A stretch of DNA of 45,236 nucleotides from an uncultured Christiangramia sp. (lineage in GTDB: Bacteria; Bacteroidota; Bacteroidia; Flavobacteriales; Flavobacteriaceae). Below, piece by piece: positions 34,409-41,668 of the stretch. The notes below the pieces were generated by a model. The model did not search any database, was not told where the DNA came from, and saw only the letters and a list, made by a program, of their open reading frames with translations. The stretch is from assembly GCF_913046405.1 (NCBI RefSeq), contig NZ_CAJWRQ010000011.1, forward strand, positions 1 to 45,236. Reading direction: 5' to 3'. The stretch's first letter is position 1; each line of letters starts with the position of its first letter. Both the position numbers and the translations under genes were made by a program.

Positions 34409-35173
34409 TTAAAGCTTGATAGGTTCGATAAAATTTGAAATTTCTGAGGTTCCTTCGCTATCAAGATGTTTTATAAAAGCACTACCAATGATCGCACCTT
34501 TAGCAAATTGTGTAGCTGCTTTGAAAGTTTCCTGATCCTTAATACCGAAACCTACGATCTGGGGATTTCTTAAATCCATTTTATGAATTCTTCGGAAGTA
34601 ATCAGTAGTTTCATTTCCGAAACCTGAAGTAGATCCGGTAACACTGGCACTACTCACCATGTAGATAAATCCATTGGAAATGGAATCTATAAACCTGATT
34701 CTTTCTTCTGAAGTTTGAGGAGTGATTAGGAAAATATTGATCAATCCGTATTTTTCAAAAAGCTCCTGGTATTCTTCATGGTAAACATCTACTGGTAGAT
34801 CTGGGATTATGAGTCCGTCGATACCAGTTTCAGCACACTCTTTACAAAAGTCCTCCACTCCGTATTGTAGCATGGGATTAAAATAACCCATGATGATCAG
34901 CGGAATCTCCACTTTAGGCCTGATATCTGTGAGTTGATCGAAAAGCTTTTGAGTGGTCATCCCATTTCGGAGAGCTTTGGTCGAACTTTCCTGAATAGTA
35001 GGCCCATCTGCCAGTGGATCGCTAAAGGGAAGTCCGATCTCAATAAAGTCAACACCGCTTTTTTCAAGATCCACAATGATCTGTTCAGTATCATCAAGGT
35101 TTGGAAAGCCTGCACTAAAATATATGGAAAGAAGTTTTCTGTCTTCTTTTAATTTCTCCTGAATTCTATTCAT
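34409..35173 (-). CDS. trpA: Tryptophan synthase alpha chain
   Basis: 254 residues, a TIM barrel. Cleaves indole-3-glycerol phosphate to indole, passed through a tunnel to TrpB. Catalytic Glu region IEIGLPFSDPLADGP (Glu near residue 46, Asp near 57) is intact, as are IMGYFNPML, GLIIPDLPVD and the phosphate-binding FGIKD. Last gene of the trp operon, 3 nt downstream of trpB. The following 78 bp before the 47-residue gene hold only a weak, imperfect hairpin, so no clear terminator is seen. Confidence 0.97.
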   Translation of the reverse strand: MNRIQEKLKEDRKLLSIYFSAGFPNLDDTEQIIVDLEKSGVDFIEIGLPFSDPLADGPTIQESSTKALRNGMTTQKLFDQLTDIRPKVEIPLIIMGYFNPMLQYGVEDFCKECAETGIDGLIIPDLPVDVYHEEYQELFEKYGLINIFLITPQTSEERIRFIDSISNGFIYMVSSASVTGSTSGFGNETTDYFRRIHKMDLRNPQIVGFGIKDQETFKAATQFAKGAIIGSAFIKHLDSEGTSEISNFIEPIKL

Positions 35174-35176
35174 TTT

Positions 35177-36358
35177 CTATAAATTGAAATATTCAATATA
35201 TGTGTTCAAATCCTTGTCGCCTCTACCTGATAGATTGACTACAACGATATCATCCTTCTTAAATTTCCGGTTTTCAAAAACTGCCAGGGCATGGGAAGTT
35301 TCTATAGCGGGAATAATCCCTTCCAGTTTAGCTAGTTCTAAACCAGCCTTCATAGCTGCTTCATCTGTAATGCTAATAAATTCTCCTCTTTTACTGGTAA
35401 AAAGATTAGCATGCATTGGTCCAACTCCCGGGTAATCCAGGCCAGCTGAAATACTATAAGGTTCAGTGATCTGTCCGTCGCCGGTTTGCATTAAAAGTGT
35501 TTTACTACCATGAATAATTCCGGGTTTTCCCAATGCTGAGGTTGCAGCACTTTCACCGGTATCAATACCTTTTCCAGCTGCTTCCACGGCGATGATCCCA
35601 ACTTTTGGATTATCGAGATAATGGTAATAAGCTCCGGCAGCGTTGCTACCACCGCCAACACAAGCGATCACATAGTCAGGATCTTCTGTATTCTCCTTTT
35701 CCATTAGCTGGTACTTGATCTCTTCAGAAATAACACTCTGAAATCTTGCCACCATGTCTGGATAAGGATGTGGTCCAACTACAGAACCAATGATATAGTG
35801 AGTATCTACTGGATTATTAATCCAGTCACGAATTGCTTCGTTAGTAGCATCCTTCAAGGTACGGCTTCCGGATTTTGCAGGAACTACTTTAGCTCCCAGC
35901 ATTTTCATTCTGGCAACGTTTGGAGACTGCCTTTCAATATCCACCTCGCCCATATAAACAATGCATTCCATTCCCATCAAAGCGCAGACTGTTGCCGTCG
36001 CAACACCATGTTGTCCAGCTCCGGTTTCAGCAATGATCCTCCTTTTTCCAAGTTTTTGCGCCATCAGGATCTGCCCGACTGTGTTGTTCACCTTATGTGC
36101 ACCAGTATGGCAAAGATCCTCACGCTTTAAATATACCTTGGTTCCATAATGCTCACTAAAGCGTTTTGCATAATATAAAGGGGTAGGTCTTCCTACATAT
36201 TCTCTCAATAGCTCATGAAACTCTTCCTGGAATGAATCTTCCTGCATGATCTCGATATACCTTGAACGCAGTTCTTCTACGTTAGGATATAGCATTTCAG
36301 GAATATAAGCTCCTCCAAAATCCCCGTAATATCCTTTTGCATCTACCTGATAGCTCAT
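35177..36358 (-). CDS. trpB: Tryptophan synthase beta chain
   Basis: 393 residues. PLP enzyme joining indole and Ser to make Trp. The PLP Lys is in HTGAHKVNN (near residue 87), preceded by LKREDL, and the phosphate loop GGGSNAAG is in the expected place, with the catalytic Glu in AETGAGQHG. It starts 1 nt after the trpF stop, consistent with one polycistronic mRNA. Length is normal for TrpB1-type chains, which partner TrpA. Confidence 0.97.
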
Positions 36359-36359
36359 C

Positions 36360-37058
36360 TTATGAATTTATCTTTTGTTTGAACTCTTTTAATTCTTTCA
36401 ATTTTTTTAATCCGGGTTTCAATTCGAATTTACTATTTACATCTACAGCATAAAGGAGATCTGGCTTGCCTTCTCTATAGAAATGATTCTTCAACTCGGC
36501 GATGGCTTCCCCATGTTCGGGCCCAATGCCACCACTAAGGAAAAATGGTGTATTAGAAGGATATTCTTTTAAAATCTGCCAGTCGAATTCCTTACCATTA
36601 CCTCCTCGTAGAACTCCTTTAGTATCAAATAGGAAATAGTCTGCGATACCCTCGAATGCCTGTATCTTTTGAAAATCGAAGTGGTCGCCAACACTGAAAA
36701 CTTTTATCAACTCTGGAGTGTTGCCATGTTGCTGAAAATTATTCTTTAGCTTTTGACAGAATTCTGCCGACTCCTCCCCATGCAGTTGAATTGCATCAAG
36801 CTTATGCTGGTTTGCAACCTCCAGAATCCTGGAAACAGATTCATTAACGAAAACTCCTGTTTTTTTGATATCAGCAGGGAGTTCAGGAAGTTTTCCTTCA
36901 AAATAGCGGGGAGATTTTTCGTAAAATATAAAACCCATATAAGTAGGTTTTAGATCTGCTACCTGCAACATGTTTCCAGGTTGTTGCATCCCGCAAACTT
37001 TTAGACTCAATCCAGAACTTTGTCCTGAGGCCGGTGTTGTTAAGTTTTGTTCCTGCAT
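36360..37058 (-). CDS. trpF: Phosphoribosylanthranilate isomerase
   Basis: 232 residues, a TIM barrel. Isomerises PRA to CdRP. The catalytic Cys is in [11 protein letters not shown] (near residue 23), [10 protein letters not shown] is in the middle, the second catalytic residue region is FLFDTKG, and the phosphate-binding [10 protein letters not shown] is present. An N-terminal tail of about 18 residues ([10 protein letters not shown]) precedes the usual start; the only Met before the core is residue 1, so the tail must be translated. It lies 8 nt downstream of trpC. Confidence 0.94.
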
Positions 37059-37066
37059 AATGTGAC

Positions 37067-37858
37067 TTATGACTTCCTGTTAATTTCGTTTATAAAATCC
37101 TTCGCTGCCCTCCCGGGATCTTCTGTCCTCATAAAATTTTCTCCAACCAGAAAACCCTGATATCCATAATCTTTAAGTTCTGCAATTACTTTTGGGTCGC
37201 TAATTCCACTTTCTGATACTTTCACGAATTCGTCTGGTATATGCCTGGATAGATCTTTGGAGTTTTGGATACTAACTTCAAATGTTTTGAGATTCCTATT
37301 ATTTACCCCGATCATGTCCACATTCGCTTCAATTGAATTCTCAAGTTCCTCAAGATCGTGTACTTCCAGTAAAACATCCATCCCAAGATTTCTCGCAAAA
37401 GTCGCCAGACGCTTCAATTCTTCAGTCGGTAATACCGCCGCAATCAGCAAAACTACATCTGCTCCAAAAGCTTTGGCTTCAAGAATCTGGTAGTCATCTA
37501 CCATAAAATCCTTACGCAAGACCGGCATTTCTACTACAGCCCTGGAGTATAAAAGATCTTCCAGAGAACCTCCAAAATATTTACCATCGGTAAGGACAGA
37601 CATACCGCAGACTCCGGCATCCCGATAACCACTCGCCACATCCTGTACATTAAGATCGTGGTTAATGACCTGCTTAGACGGTGATCTTCTTTTATGTTCC
37701 GCGATGATACCGCTGCTTGAATTTCTTAGTTTGTCTGCCAGTGAAACCGGATTTCTTTGAAATAAGATCGAATTTTCGAGCTGTTCTACCGGGAAAATCG
37801 ATTTTTTCAGGTTTACTTCCCGACGTTTATCAGCAACAATTTTATCTAGAATATTCAT
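37067..37858 (-). CDS. trpC: Indole-3-glycerol phosphate synthase
   Basis: 263 residues. Converts CdRP to indole-3-glycerol phosphate. IIAEHKRRSPSK (catalytic Lys region), VLRKDFMVDDYQI with the second catalytic Lys, DVLLEVHDLEE and IGVNNRNLKTFE are standard TrpC motifs, and SESGISDP binds phosphate. It is 12 nt downstream of trpD and 8 nt upstream of trpF; TrpC and TrpF are separate proteins here, not fused as in enteric bacteria. Confidence 0.97.
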   Translation of the reverse strand: MNILDKIVADKRREVNLKKSIFPVEQLENSILFQRNPVSLADKLRNSSSGIIAEHKRRSPSKQVINHDLNVQDVASGYRDAGVCGMSVLTDGKYFGGSLEDLLYSRAVVEMPVLRKDFMVDDYQILEAKAFGADVVLLIAAVLPTEELKRLATFARNLGMDVLLEVHDLEELENSIEANVDMIGVNNRNLKTFEVSIQNSKDLSRHIPDEFVKVSESGISDPKVIAELKDYGYQGFLVGENFMRTEDPGRAAKDFINEINRKS

Positions 37859-37870
37859 AATCTCAGCTAA

Positions 37871-38863
37871 TTATTTACTTAGGTCCTGTAATTTCTTGAA
37901 ACATTTAAATGCATTACCAGATGCGATAGATTCCTTAGCGCGGGCGAAACCATCCTGGGCACTTAGATTTTCGACAGTTGCGATGGCCATACCGGCATTT
38001 GCGCATACGACATTTTCCTGTGCCTGTGTTCCATTGCCTTTCAGAATACCGGTTAAGATTTCTGCGGAAGATTCAATCGATCCACCTCCGGCAATTTGTG
38101 ATTGTTGCAATTCTGAAACTCCAAAATCCTCTGGTTTCAACATACTTTCAGAATCGTTCCGAATGCTTTTGGTCTCACAGGTTAACGAAATTTCATCGTA
38201 ACCATCGAGAGCATGAAGTATCGTATAATTCTTATCGGTATTTTGATAAAGATACGCATACATACGTGCCAGCTCCAAACTGAAAACGCCTACGAGTTGA
38301 TTCTTGGGAAATGCAGGATTTACCATAGGACCAAGCATATTAAAGAATGTTTTTACAGCTAGACTTTTTCTAACCGGTGCAACGTTTTTCATCGCGGGGT
38401 GAAAAAGTGGTGCATGGAGAATGCAGATATTGGCTTCTTCCAGAGTTTTCTGAAGAAAACCCTGGTCACTGCTAAACTTTATCCCAAGATATTCCAGGAC
38501 ATTGGAACTTCCACTTATTGAAGATACACCATAATTACCATGCTTGGACACCTTAATTCCGGCGCCTGCGGTTACAAATGAGGCGGTTGTCGAGATATTG
38601 AAAGTATCTTTTCCATCACCGCCGGTTCCACAGAGATCCACGGTGTTATAATCCTTGAGATCTACCTTTACACATAGTTCGAGCAATGCATCTCTAAAAC
38701 CTTCCAGTTCCTGGATGGTAATACTTCTCATCATATAAACCGTAAGAAATGCTGCGATCTGTGTTTCTGAATATCTCCCTTCAGAAATATTAAAAATAGC
38801 CTGTTTTGCCTCGCTGGTTGTTATAGTTTCGTGACTAATAAGCCTGTTTAAGAGATCTTTCAT
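37871..38863 (-). CDS. trpD: Anthranilate phosphoribosyltransferase
   Basis: 330 residues. Transfers the phosphoribosyl group from PRPP to anthranilate. CGTGGDGKDTFNIS (PRPP-binding glycine-rich loop), KHGNYGVSSISGSSNVLE and the Arg/anthranilate-binding HHP-like region (APLFHPAMKNVAPVR) are present. It overlaps trpG by 4 bp as ATGA, a sign of coupled translation. Unlike in enteric bacteria there is no fusion to the glutaminase. Confidence 0.97.
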   Translation of the reverse strand: MKDLLNRLISHETITTSEAKQAIFNISEGRYSETQIAAFLTVYMMRSITIQELEGFRDALLELCVKVDLKDYNTVDLCGTGGDGKDTFNISTTASFVTAGAGIKVSKHGNYGVSSISGSSNVLEYLGIKFSSDQGFLQKTLEEANICILHAPLFHPAMKNVAPVRKSLAVKTFFNMLGPMVNPAFPKNQLVGVFSLELARMYAYLYQNTDKNYTILHALDGYDEISLTCETKSIRNDSESMLKPEDFGVSELQQSQIAGGGSIESSAEILTGILKGNGTQAQENVVCANAGMAIATVENLSAQDGFARAKESIASGNAFKCFKKLQDLSK

Positions 38864-39486
38864 GAAGTTGTTTTCTCGTTTTCCTTATTCTGAAGTGTTT
38901 CTGTTGAAGATTCATGTTCTACCCAGTTTTTTATCATCTTTTTACCATCTGGTGTCAACACAGATTCCGGGTGAAACTGAACTCCCCGAACATCATATTC
39001 TTTATGTCTCAACGACATGACCTCACCTTTTATATCATAACTGGTAGCCTGTAGCTGTGGAGGAAGTTCTTTGGCAACTACCCAACTGTGGTATCGTCCA
39101 ACTTCCAGTTCTTTTTCCAGTCCTGAGTATAAATATTCATCTTCGACGAAAACCTCAATATTGGTAGCGACGCCATGATAAACCTCTTTTAGGTTCAATA
39201 ATTTGCCTCCATAAACTTCACCTATCGCCTGCATGCCGAGACAAACCCCCAAAATACTTTTGGTAGCGCCATATTCTAAGATGATTTGCTTTAAAAGTCC
39301 TGCCTCATTTGGAATACCCGGACCCGGGGAAAGCAATATTTTATCATAATCAGCCACATCTTCCAGATCAAGCTGGTCATTTCTCTTTACGGTCACCTCA
39401 CAATTCAGTTCTTCAAGATAATGAACAAGATTATATACGAAAGAATCGTAATTGTCTATTACAAGGATCTTTTTCATCTTTTCCAT
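38860..39486 (-). CDS. trpG: Anthranilate synthase glutaminase subunit
   Basis: 208 residues. Supplies ammonia from glutamine to TrpE. Class I glutaminase triad: Cys82 in LGVCLGMQAIG, with His and Glu in GVQFHPESVLTP (about 172-174). LSPGPGIPNEAG is the other family motif. The start could also be the Met at residue 4 (39477); the first is retained because it lies 1 nt after the trpE stop. It could serve also as the pabA glutaminase for folate if no second copy exists, which cannot be judged here. Confidence 0.95.
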   Translation of the reverse strand: MEKMKKILVIDNYDSFVYNLVHYLEELNCEVTVKRNDQLDLEDVADYDKILLSPGPGIPNEAGLLKQIILEYGATKSILGVCLGMQAIGEVYGGKLLNLKEVYHGVATNIEVFVEDEYLYSGLEKELEVGRYHSWVVAKELPPQLQATSYDIKGEVMSLRHKEYDVRGVQFHPESVLTPDGKKMIKNWVEHESSTETLQNKENEKTTS

Positions 39487-39487
39487 T

Positions 39488-40882
39488 CTAAATTTCTTCA
39501 GCTATTTCCAGAGCTTTGGTAAGTGCTCCCAGTTTATTATATACTTCCTGTAACTCATTCTCAGGCTTGGATTCTGATACGACTCCAGCACCTGCCTGGT
39601 AATGCAATTCGTGATTTTTACTTACAAAAGATCTAATGATGATCGCATGATTAAAATTGCCTTCAAAATCCATAAAACCAATCGCGCCTCCATAAGCTGA
39701 ACGATTCACATTTTCGAATTTTTCAATAAGTCGTAATGCCATTGGTTTTGGAGCACCGCTTAATGTTCCAGCAGGAAAAGTGTCTGCAACGATCTGTGGT
39801 GTTGGCACATTGGCGGCAATCTTTCCGGTGACTTTGCTAACTAGATGAATAACATGAGAAAAGAATTGAATTTCGCGGTAATTTTCAACCACAACATCAC
39901 TTCCATTTCGGCTTAGATCATTACGGGCCAGATCAACAAGCATCACATGTTCCGAATTTTCCTTGCGATCTGCAGCGAGTTCCTTGGCGAGCTCTGCATC
40001 TTTTTCATCATTTCCGGTACGCTTGAAAGTTCCGGCAATTGGATGAATTTCAGCTCGACCCTCGTTTACTATTAACTGTGCTTCAGGTGAACTTCCGAAG
40101 ATTTTAAAATTTCCGTAGTCAAAATAAAAGAGATAGGGGGAAGGGTTTACATTCCTTAGCGCCCGATAAACATTAAATTCATCTCCCTTAAATTTCTGAG
40201 AGAAACGTCTTGAAAGCACCAGTTGGAAAACATCACCACGCTGGCAGTGTTCCTTGGCCGCCTCTACAACATCACGATATTGATCATCATTCAGGTTCGA
40301 GTATGGCTGCTTGATTCTGGAAAAATTATAGGAAGCAAAATTCTTAACCTTCAATAGTTGTTCAATTTCCTCTAGTTTGGATTCAGATTCATAACTATGG
40401 TCGAAGATATAAGCCTCGTTCTTGAAGTGGTTGATCGCGATAATGTTTTGATATACTGCATAATAAACATCCGGGATTTTTAAATCCTTTTCTTTACGTT
40501 TGATCTCTACATTTTCAAAATACCGAACGGCATCGTAGCCTATATAACCAAATATGCCATTATTGATAAACTTAAAATCTGAAGCATCAGCTTTAAAGCG
40601 CTTTGAGAACTTCTGTATCGCAGCAGGGACTGAAGCAGTTCTATCGATCTTAGTTGTTTGAACCGTACCGTCTGGTAGACTTTCAGTAATAACATCATTT
40701 TCTACTTTAAATGAGGCTATAGGATTGCAGCAGATATATGAAAAGCTATTATCACTTGCATGATAATCACTACTTTCCAGCAAAAGACTATTTGGATAAC
40801 GGTCGCGAAGCTTCAAATAGATACTTACCGGAGTAATTGTATCTGCAAGGATCTTTTTTGAAGTTGTCTTTAATTCGAACAT
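39488..40882 (-). CDS. trpE: Anthranilate synthase component I
   Basis: 464 residues. Makes anthranilate from chorismate with TrpG. The Trp feedback-binding LLES motif is at about residues 34-37 and NPSPYLFYFDYG lies near 240, so the enzyme probably keeps allosteric inhibition by Trp. The chorismate-utilising domain includes HPIAGTFKRTGNDEKD, EHVMLVDLARNDL and AGAGVVSESKPENE. First structural gene of the operon. It sits behind the leader attenuator at 40904-41055, so it should be controlled both at RNA and enzyme levels. Confidence 0.97.
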   Translation of the reverse strand: MFELKTTSKKILADTITPVSIYLKLRDRYPNSLLLESSDYHASDNSFSYICCNPIASFKVENDVITESLPDGTVQTTKIDRTASVPAAIQKFSKRFKADASDFKFINNGIFGYIGYDAVRYFENVEIKRKEKDLKIPDVYYAVYQNIIAINHFKNEAYIFDHSYESESKLEEIEQLLKVKNFASYNFSRIKQPYSNLNDDQYRDVVEAAKEHCQRGDVFQLVLSRRFSQKFKGDEFNVYRALRNVNPSPYLFYFDYGNFKIFGSSPEAQLIVNEGRAEIHPIAGTFKRTGNDEKDAELAKELAADRKENSEHVMLVDLARNDLSRNGSDVVVENYREIQFFSHVIHLVSKVTGKIAANVPTPQIVADTFPAGTLSGAPKPMALRLIEKFENVNRSAYGGAIGFMDFEGNFNHAIIIRSFVSKNHELHYQAGAGVVSESKPENELQEVYNKLGALTKALEIAEEI

Positions 40883-40903
40883 TGAATCTTAATTTTTTTG
40901 AAT

Positions 40904-40932
40904 AAAAAAAGGCTTGTCGTGAGACAAGCCTT
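40904..40932 (-). terminator. trp operon leader terminator (attenuator)
   Basis: Minus strand: a perfect 10-bp stem, AAGGCTTGTC and GACAAGCCTT with loop TCAC (40909-40932), followed by seven T (40910-40904). It ends about 20 nt before the trpE ATG, so it would stop transcription before the trp genes. It could also stop read-through from yceI. Confidence 0.85.
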
Positions 40933-40968
40933 ATATATCTATATATGAAATGGCGTATCAGCTCACGA
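40917..40968 (-). promoter_or_regulatory. Candidate antiterminator pairing in the trp leader
   Basis: On the minus strand TCGTGAG (40968-40962), which includes the leader-peptide stop codon, is exactly complementary to CTCACGA (40923-40917) in the terminator loop and stem base. A 3-bp GCC/GGC pair (40954-40952 with 40930-40928) can extend it, around a small AU hairpin. TTACG (40980-40976) may instead pair with CGTGA (40967-40963, one G-U pair) as the 1:2 stem. Stability was not computed. Confidence 0.5.
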
Positions 40969-41019
40969 TTTATTGCGTAAGTTGCTCCACCACCAGTTAT
41001 GTGTATTCGTTATAAACAT
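40963..41019 (-). CDS. trpL: trp leader peptide with three consecutive Trp codons
   Basis: An 18-residue ORF, MFITNTHNWWWSNLRNKS, too short for ordinary ORF lists. Three TGG codons stand in a row at residues 9-11; Trp is otherwise rare, so this is hard to explain by chance in a trp leader. It lies between a Bacteroidota promoter and the attenuator hairpin, and its stop codon is inside the antiterminator strand. Ribosome stalling at TGG when charged tRNA-Trp is low would let the antiterminator form; finishing at the stop would cover it and allow termination. It acts through its translation, not its product. The ATG is 5 nt from the -7 box. An in-frame TTG at 41040 is a possible alternative start. 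Confidence 0.8.
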   Translation of the reverse strand: MFITNTHNWWWSNLRNKS

Positions 41020-41024
41020 AGCTT

Positions 41025-41055
41025 CAAAGATAGAAATCAATTATTTCTTATCAAA
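41025..41055 (-). promoter_or_regulatory. trp operon promoter
   Basis: Minus strand: TTTG (41055-41052), a 19-nt spacer, then TATCTTTG (41032-41025), a perfect match to the Bacteroidota TTTG/TAnnTTTG promoter. Only AAGCT separates it from the leader-peptide ATG. Confidence 0.7.
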
Positions 41056-41098
41056 CTAAATTTTAAAAAGAATCCCAAGATTTACCTAGGGAGTCAAT

Positions 41099-41668
41099 TT
41101 AGAATTTCAAAGTGATGTCAAGATCAAAATTGTCGTAGATCGTCTTGTCTCCCAGATTGTCAAAGAAACTACCCGACCCGTAACGAACATCATATTTAGT
41201 TCTATCAATAGTTACCTGTGTAGTGGCCGTATCACCGTTCATGGTAAGATCAAACGTTAAGGGGTGTGTTTGTTCCTTTATAGTAAGGTCTCCAACGATT
41301 CCGTATTTCCCATTGCCTTTAGAAGCTGCACTGGTAATTACAAGCTTTGCTTTAGGGTGATCACTCGTTCCAAAGAAGTCATCAGACTTTAAATGACCTT
41401 CAAGTTTTTCTTTACTGTCACCAGAAAGGTCGGTCACTGTAATAGTACTCATATCCATTACAAACTCTCCGCCAGTGATCTTATCATCTTCCATCAATAG
41501 GTATCCGCTTTCCAGCTGGATAGTTCCTTCATGAGATCCGGTCACTTTTTCTCCGGTCCATTTAATAGTACTTTCAGAGGTATTTACTTCTTTTTTCGAA
41601 TTGGTAAATGCTACGGTAGTCAAAACTACCAGCATAATTACTGCGGAATTAATTAATTTACTTTTCAT
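41099..41668 (-). CDS. YceI family periplasmic protein
   Basis: 189 residues with an N-terminal signal peptide (1-22). The YceI fold is an extended lipocalin-like barrel that binds isoprenoid or other lipids: SESTIKWTGEKVTGSHEG, GGEFVMDMSTITVTDLSG, LKSDDFFGTSDHPKAKLV and IVGDLTIKEQTHPLTF are characteristic. It follows the nitroreductase gene by 16 nt and is the last gene of a marR-nitroreductase-yceI operon. Its own terminator is not distinct; the trp attenuator hairpin lies about 170 nt downstream. Confidence 0.93.
   Translation of the reverse strand: MKSKLINSAVIMLVVLTTVAFTNSKKEVNTSESTIKWTGEKVTGSHEGTIQLESGYLLMEDDKITGGEFVMDMSTITVTDLSGDSKEKLEGHLKSDDFFGTSDHPKAKLVITSAASKGNGKYGIVGDLTIKEQTHPLTFDLTMNGDTATTQVTIDRTKYDVRYGSGSFFDNLGDKTIYDNFDLDITLKF

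Follow-up and report, generated by a model that had tools for sequence, protein, structure and literature searches.

Bacteroid-trp RNA (Rfam RF01692) was listed as a candidate cis-regulatory element of the Bacteroidetes by Weinberg et al. (2010; PMC2864571, passages covered), and the passages covered of PMC6414381 place it upstream of trp in Flavobacterium psychrophilum and liken it to the leader of E. coli. In PMC9723704, again for the passages covered, leader-peptide clues are given at amino-acid operons of F. psychrophilum, and pheA and hisG elements are named among its structured 5′ regions; the word tryptophan is absent from the main text, the supplements lying outside this scope, and the passages covered hold no pairing or spacing analysis, unlike the present work. 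We have analysed the region upstream of trpE in a 45,236 nt stretch of DNA from an uncultured Christiangramia sp. of the Flavobacteriaceae (NCBI RefSeq assembly GCF_913046405.1, contig NZ_CAJWRQ010000011.1, positions 1 to 45,236), the whole of which is called the window below. A Trp-rich leader lies there before the genes trpEGDCFBA, and we put at roughly 0.92 the probability that it is a ribosome-mediated transcription attenuator of this operon, homologous to Bacteroid-trp. An initial annotation, made from the sequence alone, had considered trp regulation in Bacteroidota much less studied. For this element that view is too broad: it is a homologue of RF01692, noted in F. psychrophilum (PMC6414381, as above), the element is already known as a kind, and the locus itself is ordinary. 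What is new relative to RF01692 is a covarying antiterminator pairing, a frame-blind spacing of 27–28 nt, and a probable leaderless ORF.

The trp leader of E. coli (RF00513; locus L276) resembles that of the window in its Trp control codons, in the logic of its alternative 1:2, 2:3 and 3:4 pairings and in its folding behaviour, and differs from it in its letters, in having two Trp codons in place of three and in an ORF that is not leaderless. Membership of the window in RF00513 was considered and rejected, the score being 20.9 bits against a cut-off of 41. A likeness in the predicted start is found in two leaders from other phyla: TrpL1 of S. lividans (MFAHSTRNWWWTAHPAAH), described in the passages covered of PMC8079986 as leaderless, with 18 codons and WWW at codons 9–11, and trpL of S. 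meliloti, likewise leaderless in the part of PMC7298713 covered. The window differs from both in carrying a Bacteroidota promoter, and its likeness to TrpL1 is presumably convergent.

Anatomy of the leader

The elements of the leader all lie on the minus strand and were read directly from the sequence (Table 1). The promoter proposed in the initial annotation (TTTG, 19 nt and TATCTTTG), its 18-codon ORF with three consecutive TGG codons and its perfect 10 bp terminator stem followed by T7 shortly before trpE were all found on direct reading. The −7 box is separated from the leader ATG by the nucleotides AAGCT, and 21 nt lie between the T-tract and the ATG of trpE. Three short strands may form alternative pairings: segment 1 (CTTACG), segment 2 (TCGTGAG) and segment 3 (CTCACGA). 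Segments 2 and 3 are complementary at 7 of 7 positions, exactly as had been claimed; the placing of segment 3 in the terminator loop was slightly loose, since it comprises the 4 nt loop together with one flanking base from the 5′ arm and two from the 3′ arm.

The leader RNA has a folding z of −4.56, with none of 200 shuffles folding equally well, and when the upstream segment was shuffled 5000 times, the score of the 7 bp 2:3 match was reached in 40 cases. These values, together with the dinucleotide shuffles given below, rule out a chance ORF and terminator. The sequence contains two features of a ribosome-mediated attenuator, a predicted translatable leader with Trp control codons and an intrinsic terminator before the first structural gene.

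Conservation of the Trp-rich leader

The nearest named trpE loci are those of Gramella/Christiangramia. Our genus sample comprised the window and 23 further Christiangramia genomes (24 loci), and our family sample 149 genomes, one per genus, called Flavobacteriaceae after the nearest named trpE loci. A TrpE search matched 134 of the 149, and 130 upstream regions were used (30 loci including the window, and 100 regions); G104, which is cut at trpE, and the three weakest matches (G041, G160 and G166) were left out. Leaders in the family sample were recognised by an in-frame WW and a stop codon no more than 75 nt away.

A Trp-rich short ORF upstream of trpE in close relatives, on which the initial annotation had made its proposal depend, was found throughout the genus: all 24 Christiangramia loci have a WWW leader before trpE, and all 24 contain the segment 1 sequence CTTACG. 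Trp-rich leaders also precede trpE in 128 of the 130 family genomes, with WWW in 114 and WW in 14. Among 2600 dinucleotide shuffles of the same 130 regions, 30 had a WW leader and none a WWW leader. In 23 of 23 congeners, as in 106 of 123 family leaders, codon 9 is the first to encode Trp. The two family exceptions are L077, where the contig ends inside the leader with TGGTGGTGG visible, and L161, which has none. Among the named loci 77 of 80 have a leader. In the class sample, 63 of 198 genomes had a TrpE match at E 1e-110, giving 60 upstream regions, two of them too short; a WW leader was present in 37 of the 58 usable regions.

Several of these results weigh against the attenuator reading. 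L161 lacks a leader before trpE, and there is no WW leader in the remaining 21 of the 58 class regions, several of which, by eye, have W-x-W ORFs or sit behind trpB. The trpE genes of Salegentibacter salarius, S. holothuriorum and S. maritimus (L173, L176 and L178) also have no leader. Other loci of the same genus (L172, L175 and L179) keep it, and either loss or rearrangement of the operon may account for the three absences.

Relation to Bacteroid-trp RNA

When 1 kb around the leader was searched with cmscan, RF01692 was the sole relevant Rfam match (E 3.3e-4), and in a search of the whole genome the leader was the only match to RF01692 at E 0.001 (E 2.3e-4). The alignment is full length, covering model positions 1–131, with non-standard pairs at several places. 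As its score is 2.2 bits under the curated threshold, the leader is, judged from its sequence, a sub-threshold orthologue or homologue of Bacteroid-trp and not a formal member. It has the position of that family, upstream of trp genes and before trpE in Bacteroidota, and a short ORF with consecutive Trp codons (MFITNTHNWWWSNLRNKS); common to both are also a UCGUAAG-like strand at the stop, a GGCUUGUC terminator arm and a consensus hairpin over the Trp-codon region. The displayed structure of RF01692 differs in containing neither the terminator nor the 2:3 antiterminator, the model ending at GGCUUGUC, and unlike the window its consensus shows no TAnnTTTG just before the ATG.

RF01692 matches 109 of the 149 family genomes, 94 of them above the cut-off. 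Within Christiangramia it detects 21 of the 24 loci, with scores of 46.8–70.6 bits, and 16 of these are above the cut-off; the five below it are the window, L005 and L006 (46.8 bits each), L007 (48.8) and L014 (48.3, cut by a contig end). At E 0.05 the congeners L025–L027 were not detected, and neither were five order-level relatives (L028–L032) that have leaders and terminators. The current model at this E value therefore misses the trp leaders with terminators of L025–L032.

A score of 46.8 bits against 49, and the lack of detection of L025–L027, could be taken as a hint that the leader is a relic that has decayed in the lineage of the window. However, the promoter, WWW, CTTACG, the 2:3 strands, the terminator and the T-tract are all intact and are identical in L005 and L006, the range of scores among detected congeners extends far above that of the window, and even L025–L027 retain WWW, the terminator and the 2:3 strands. 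Decay is extremely improbable on these grounds.

Conservation and covariation of the predicted antiterminator

The 2:3 pairing is kept in all 24 congeners, in three of which a one-letter change in segment 3 results in a G–U pair. TCGTGA is present in 111 of the 130 family upstream regions (17 leaders lack it, and two regions have no leader row), compared with 148 of 25400 shuffled linkers, and in 102 of the 111 it starts 27–28 nt after the first Trp codon. Each of the three reading frames is represented, and the motif may precede, coincide with or follow the stop codon, the end of which varies from 15 to 42 nt after the first Trp codon. What is conserved is the geometry of the RNA and not the peptide: the 27–28 nt spacing is nearly fixed while frame and stop vary.

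These data bear on two other roles for the leader. A Trp-binding protein of the TRAP type, or a ligand-binding RNA, might control the terminator while the short ORF is incidental, given that a terminator and a complementary strand could be switched by any factor covering segment 2. Such control would leave unexplained the Trp codons at positions 9–11 and their near-fixed distance to segment 2. Moreover, PF02081 had no match at E 0.001 in the assembly, which is 90% complete, while the same model matches in B. subtilis, and no T-box or riboswitch was among the Rfam matches up to E = 10 in positions 40500–41500. We regard this alternative as very unlikely. Slightly less weight still can be given to a leader that acts mainly in trans, as a functional small RNA or peptide, with attenuation secondary. 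In S. meliloti the trpL ATG is the first codon and the 5′ end of the attenuated RNA, and the products of this RNA (rnTrpL/peTrpL) have effects in trans (PMC7298713, passages covered); the attenuated transcript of the window would be about 115 nt long. Against such a role, the C-terminal part of the peptide is unconserved: the stop shifts and the tail changes frame between loci, but the RNA motif persists.

Compensated loops were observed at several loci, namely TTTGTCGCAAT:ATTGCGACAAG (L131), GGATTCAG:CTGAATCC (L155), GAGAAGC:GCTTCTC (L029 and L032) and GAACAGC:GCTGTTC (L249, L293, L297 and others). Covariation was assessed in a permutation test with 20000 shuffles, using 29 representatives that share no 6-mer in the loop core. 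The representatives were drawn from 169 loci with both leader and terminator, out of 195; 23 had no leader, two were too short, and one (L083) had no terminator even when a T-run of at least four was accepted. The 2:3 pairing scored 459 (p = 5e-5), the shuffles averaging 364.5 and reaching 428.5 at most, while the N-terminal coding stretch, used as a control in the same test, gave p = 0.23. Covariation thus supports the predicted, mutually exclusive 2:3 antiterminator, with counter-examples.

The counter-examples, and the results for the 1:2 pairing, count against the complete scheme. At 24 loci the top of the terminator has no TCACGA. Only five of these (L131, L147, L155, L029 and L030) place their own partner among the first 7 of 126 whichever strand is swapped; several of the remainder retain the usual TCGTG strand, with shorter or G–U pairing. 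No good 2:3 match was found in L119, L148, L152, L153 and L154, and with their own terminators 8 of the 29 representatives come no higher than rank 13. The 1:2 pairing (CTTACG:CGTGAG in the window) is weaker, with p = 0.017 for 26 loci, and the RNAalifold consensus of 122 leaders contains the terminator only and no 1:2 pairing; a 1:2 hairpin is present in the minimum free energy fold of the window. The ribosome-mediated attenuation put forward in the initial annotation is supported by co-variation of the stop region with the terminator top across families, but not at every locus.

A model for attenuation

In the mechanism that we propose, transcription would start at the leader ATG or 1 nt before it, and a ribosome would bind the nascent RNA at its 5′ end. 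When Trp is ample, the ribosome would pass the three Trp codons, reach the stop codon inside segment 2 and cover that segment; CTCACGA would then be free, the terminator would fold and transcription would end before trpE. When Trp-tRNA is scarce, the ribosome would stall at codons 9–11 with its modelled front edge 8–14 nt short of segment 2. Segment 2 would thereby be released from segment 1 and would pair with CTCACGA as this emerges, before the 3′ arm of the terminator is complete, allowing transcription to continue into trpE. If the leader is not translated, 1:2 would form and the terminator would win.

The folding of the leader was followed at exposed lengths of 99–119 nt, with the front edge of the ribosome placed 15 nt downstream of the first base in the P site. 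With the A site occupied by Trp codon 1, 2 or 3, six 2:3 base pairs were present at 103 to 107 or 108 nt exposed, and for stalling at codons 2 and 3 four or five of these pairs were already present from 101 nt. In the free and terminating states 2:3 was never formed at 99–119 nt, and the terminator was formed instead. One result speaks against the model in its simplest form: from 108–109 nt on, the terminator is favoured over the antiterminator at equilibrium, even when the ribosome is stalled. Antitermination must therefore be kinetic. The E. coli K-12 trp leader behaved alike when folded in the same way at sampled lengths, forming the antiterminator at 95–105 nt and losing it at 108 nt, so that the objection from equilibrium is not peculiar to the window.

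A predicted leaderless start

Bacteroidota, to our knowledge, have no Shine-Dalgarno initiation, and their leaderless mRNAs are rare. The initial annotation overlooked that the leader ATG begins at the sixth base after the −7 box. A perfect TAnnTTTG is present in 124 of the 128 family leaders, and most family rows, like the window, have a TTG 17–23 nt upstream of this box. Spacing was counted to the first in-frame ATG after TAnnTTTG. In all 23 congeners with a visible promoter this ATG is at the sixth base (once the fifth); L014, cut by its contig, was dropped. A second in-frame ATG, at base 15, is present in 14 of the 23 and absent from the window and eight others, so the first ATG is the conserved one.

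The TAnnTTTG box is at −12 to −5 in F. psychrophilum (PMC9723704, passages covered), and a figure legend in PMC6847099, another source covered in part, gives a spacing of 4–5 nt between box and start in F. johnsoniae. With either value an ATG at base 5–6 means a 5′ untranslated region of 0–1 nt. The leader ORF of the window is thus probably leaderless, as predicted from the distance between promoter and ATG. For comparison, the same passages report 5.5% leaderless mRNAs in F. psychrophilum (PMC9723704), and leaders longer than 10 nt for 87% of those predicted in F. johnsoniae (PMC6847099).

In the family sample the ATG is at base 5–6 after the box in 32 of 123 leaders and at 7–23 in others, with a second mode at 17–21; three are at 39–47. 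Seven of the 130 rows (L059, L077, L086, L111, L118, L125 and L161) were dropped because the box was imperfect, the start was not ATG or the leader was incomplete. A FastTree tree of TrpE was built from 99 of 110 loci, the rest having no leader, an imperfect box or fewer than 400 aa; L166 had been excluded beforehand as cut short. On this tree the 0–2 nt state (46 of 99 loci) fills whole clades, with at least 8 changes, a soft count in that 29 of the 92 inner forks are open. The clades in question are Christiangramia with Salegentibacter, Gillisia and Zunongwangia; Allomuricauda/Flagellimonas; and parts of the Maribacter/Cellulophaga group.

On balance we favour the view that several Flavobacteriaceae clades, including that of the window, have a leaderless trp attenuator in which the sensor is a ruler of 27–28 nt, from the first Trp codon to the antiterminator strand, that is blind to frame and stop. 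If this is true, coupling of ribosome and RNA polymerase would be needed from the first codon in Bacteroidota. No report of a leaderless trp leader in Bacteroidota was found among the matches listed, a weak negative, as subscription journals and supplements were not covered.

The operon and neighbouring sequences

The genes trpEGDCFBA lie directly downstream of the leader, with intergenic gaps of at most 12 nt (Table 1). Five of the seven have a fitting NCBIfam model above its cut-off, and trpE and trpF are below the cut-off of their best model. A YceI-like gene (41099–41668; NF002994, 38.4 bits, below cut-off) immediately precedes the leader promoter and shares its strand. In many congeners a separate hairpin and T-run can be seen by eye between this gene and the trp promoter.

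Table 1. Positions of the leader elements and trp genes in the window
Feature	Position	Strand	Basis
−33 promoter element TTTG	41052..41055	−	Sequence; 19 nt spacer to −7 box
−7 promoter element TATCTTTG (TAnnTTTG, Bacteroidota sigma-A)	41025..41032	−	Sequence
Match to Rfam RF01692 Bacteroid-trp, 46.8 bits (gathering cut-off 49)	40923..41039	−	cmscan
Predicted transcription start, 0–1 nt before leader ATG (leaderless)	41019..41020	−	Promoter spacing
Leader peptide ORF MFITNTHNWWWSNLRNKS + TGA, 18 codons	40963..41019	−	Sequence; TGA 40965–40963
Three Trp control codons TGGTGGTGG (codons 9–11)	40987..40995	−	Sequence
Segment 1 CTTACG, pairs with segment 2	40976..40981	−	1:2 hairpin in minimum free energy fold
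Segment 2 TCGTGAG (antiterminator 5′ strand), spans last sense codon and stop codon	40962..40968	−	
Segment 3 CTCACGA, top of terminator hairpin	40917..40923	−	Sequence
Intrinsic terminator: 10 bp stem AAGGCTTGTC/GACAAGCCTT 40932–40909, loop TCAC 40922–40919, T7 40910–40904	40904..40932	−	
trpE	39488..40882	−	ORF; TIGR00564 422.8 bits, below its 517.7 cut-off
trpG	38860..39486	−	TIGR00566 above cut-off
trpD	37871..38863	−	TIGR01245 above cut-off
trpC	37067..37858	−	NF001377 above cut-off
trpF	36360..37058	−	NF002298 best, 136.8 bits, below its 215 cut-off
trpB	35177..36358	−	TIGR00263 above cut-off
trpA	34409..35173	−	TIGR00262 above cut-off

Candidate leaders at other amino-acid operons

Similar arrangements were seen at other loci of the same genome. 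A His leader (MTNFNVHHHHFLPHAQAR) precedes hisG (L272), about 300 nt upstream of the start of the HisG domain, together with a terminator and a CTCAAGC:GTTTGAG pairing. A short ORF with at least three consecutive His codons was present in 29 of 30 hisG loci, this one included, and in 24 of 24 of the genus; L336 had none. About 150 nt before the PDT domain start of the prephenate dehydratase gene (L273) there is a Phe/Tyr-rich ORF (MTSLINWNAFYYFYFYTRNRIGNAI) followed by a terminator; no perfect −7 box was found for this ORF, and its 2:3 match is weak (5 bp). An Ile/Val/Leu-rich short ORF (MISIVEKFVVAVLEILF) and a terminator lie about 400 nt upstream of the ilvD domain (L274), and 9 of the 25 ilvD loci covered, this one included, have a comparable ORF by the test applied (L274 and L338–L361, three partial loci being excluded). 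The thr locus (L275) begins inside a fused gene.

Significance

Attenuation by a leader peptide requires a pioneer ribosome that follows close behind RNA polymerase. Because attenuation depends on this close following, and because the leaders are widespread, the trp leaders of 128 of 130 family genomes and the His leaders before hisG in 24 of 24 genus loci argue for coupling of transcription and translation in a phylum that initiates translation without Shine-Dalgarno sequences. The leader described here is a conserved module of promoter, leader and terminator for measuring leaderless initiation and coupling in Bacteroidota.
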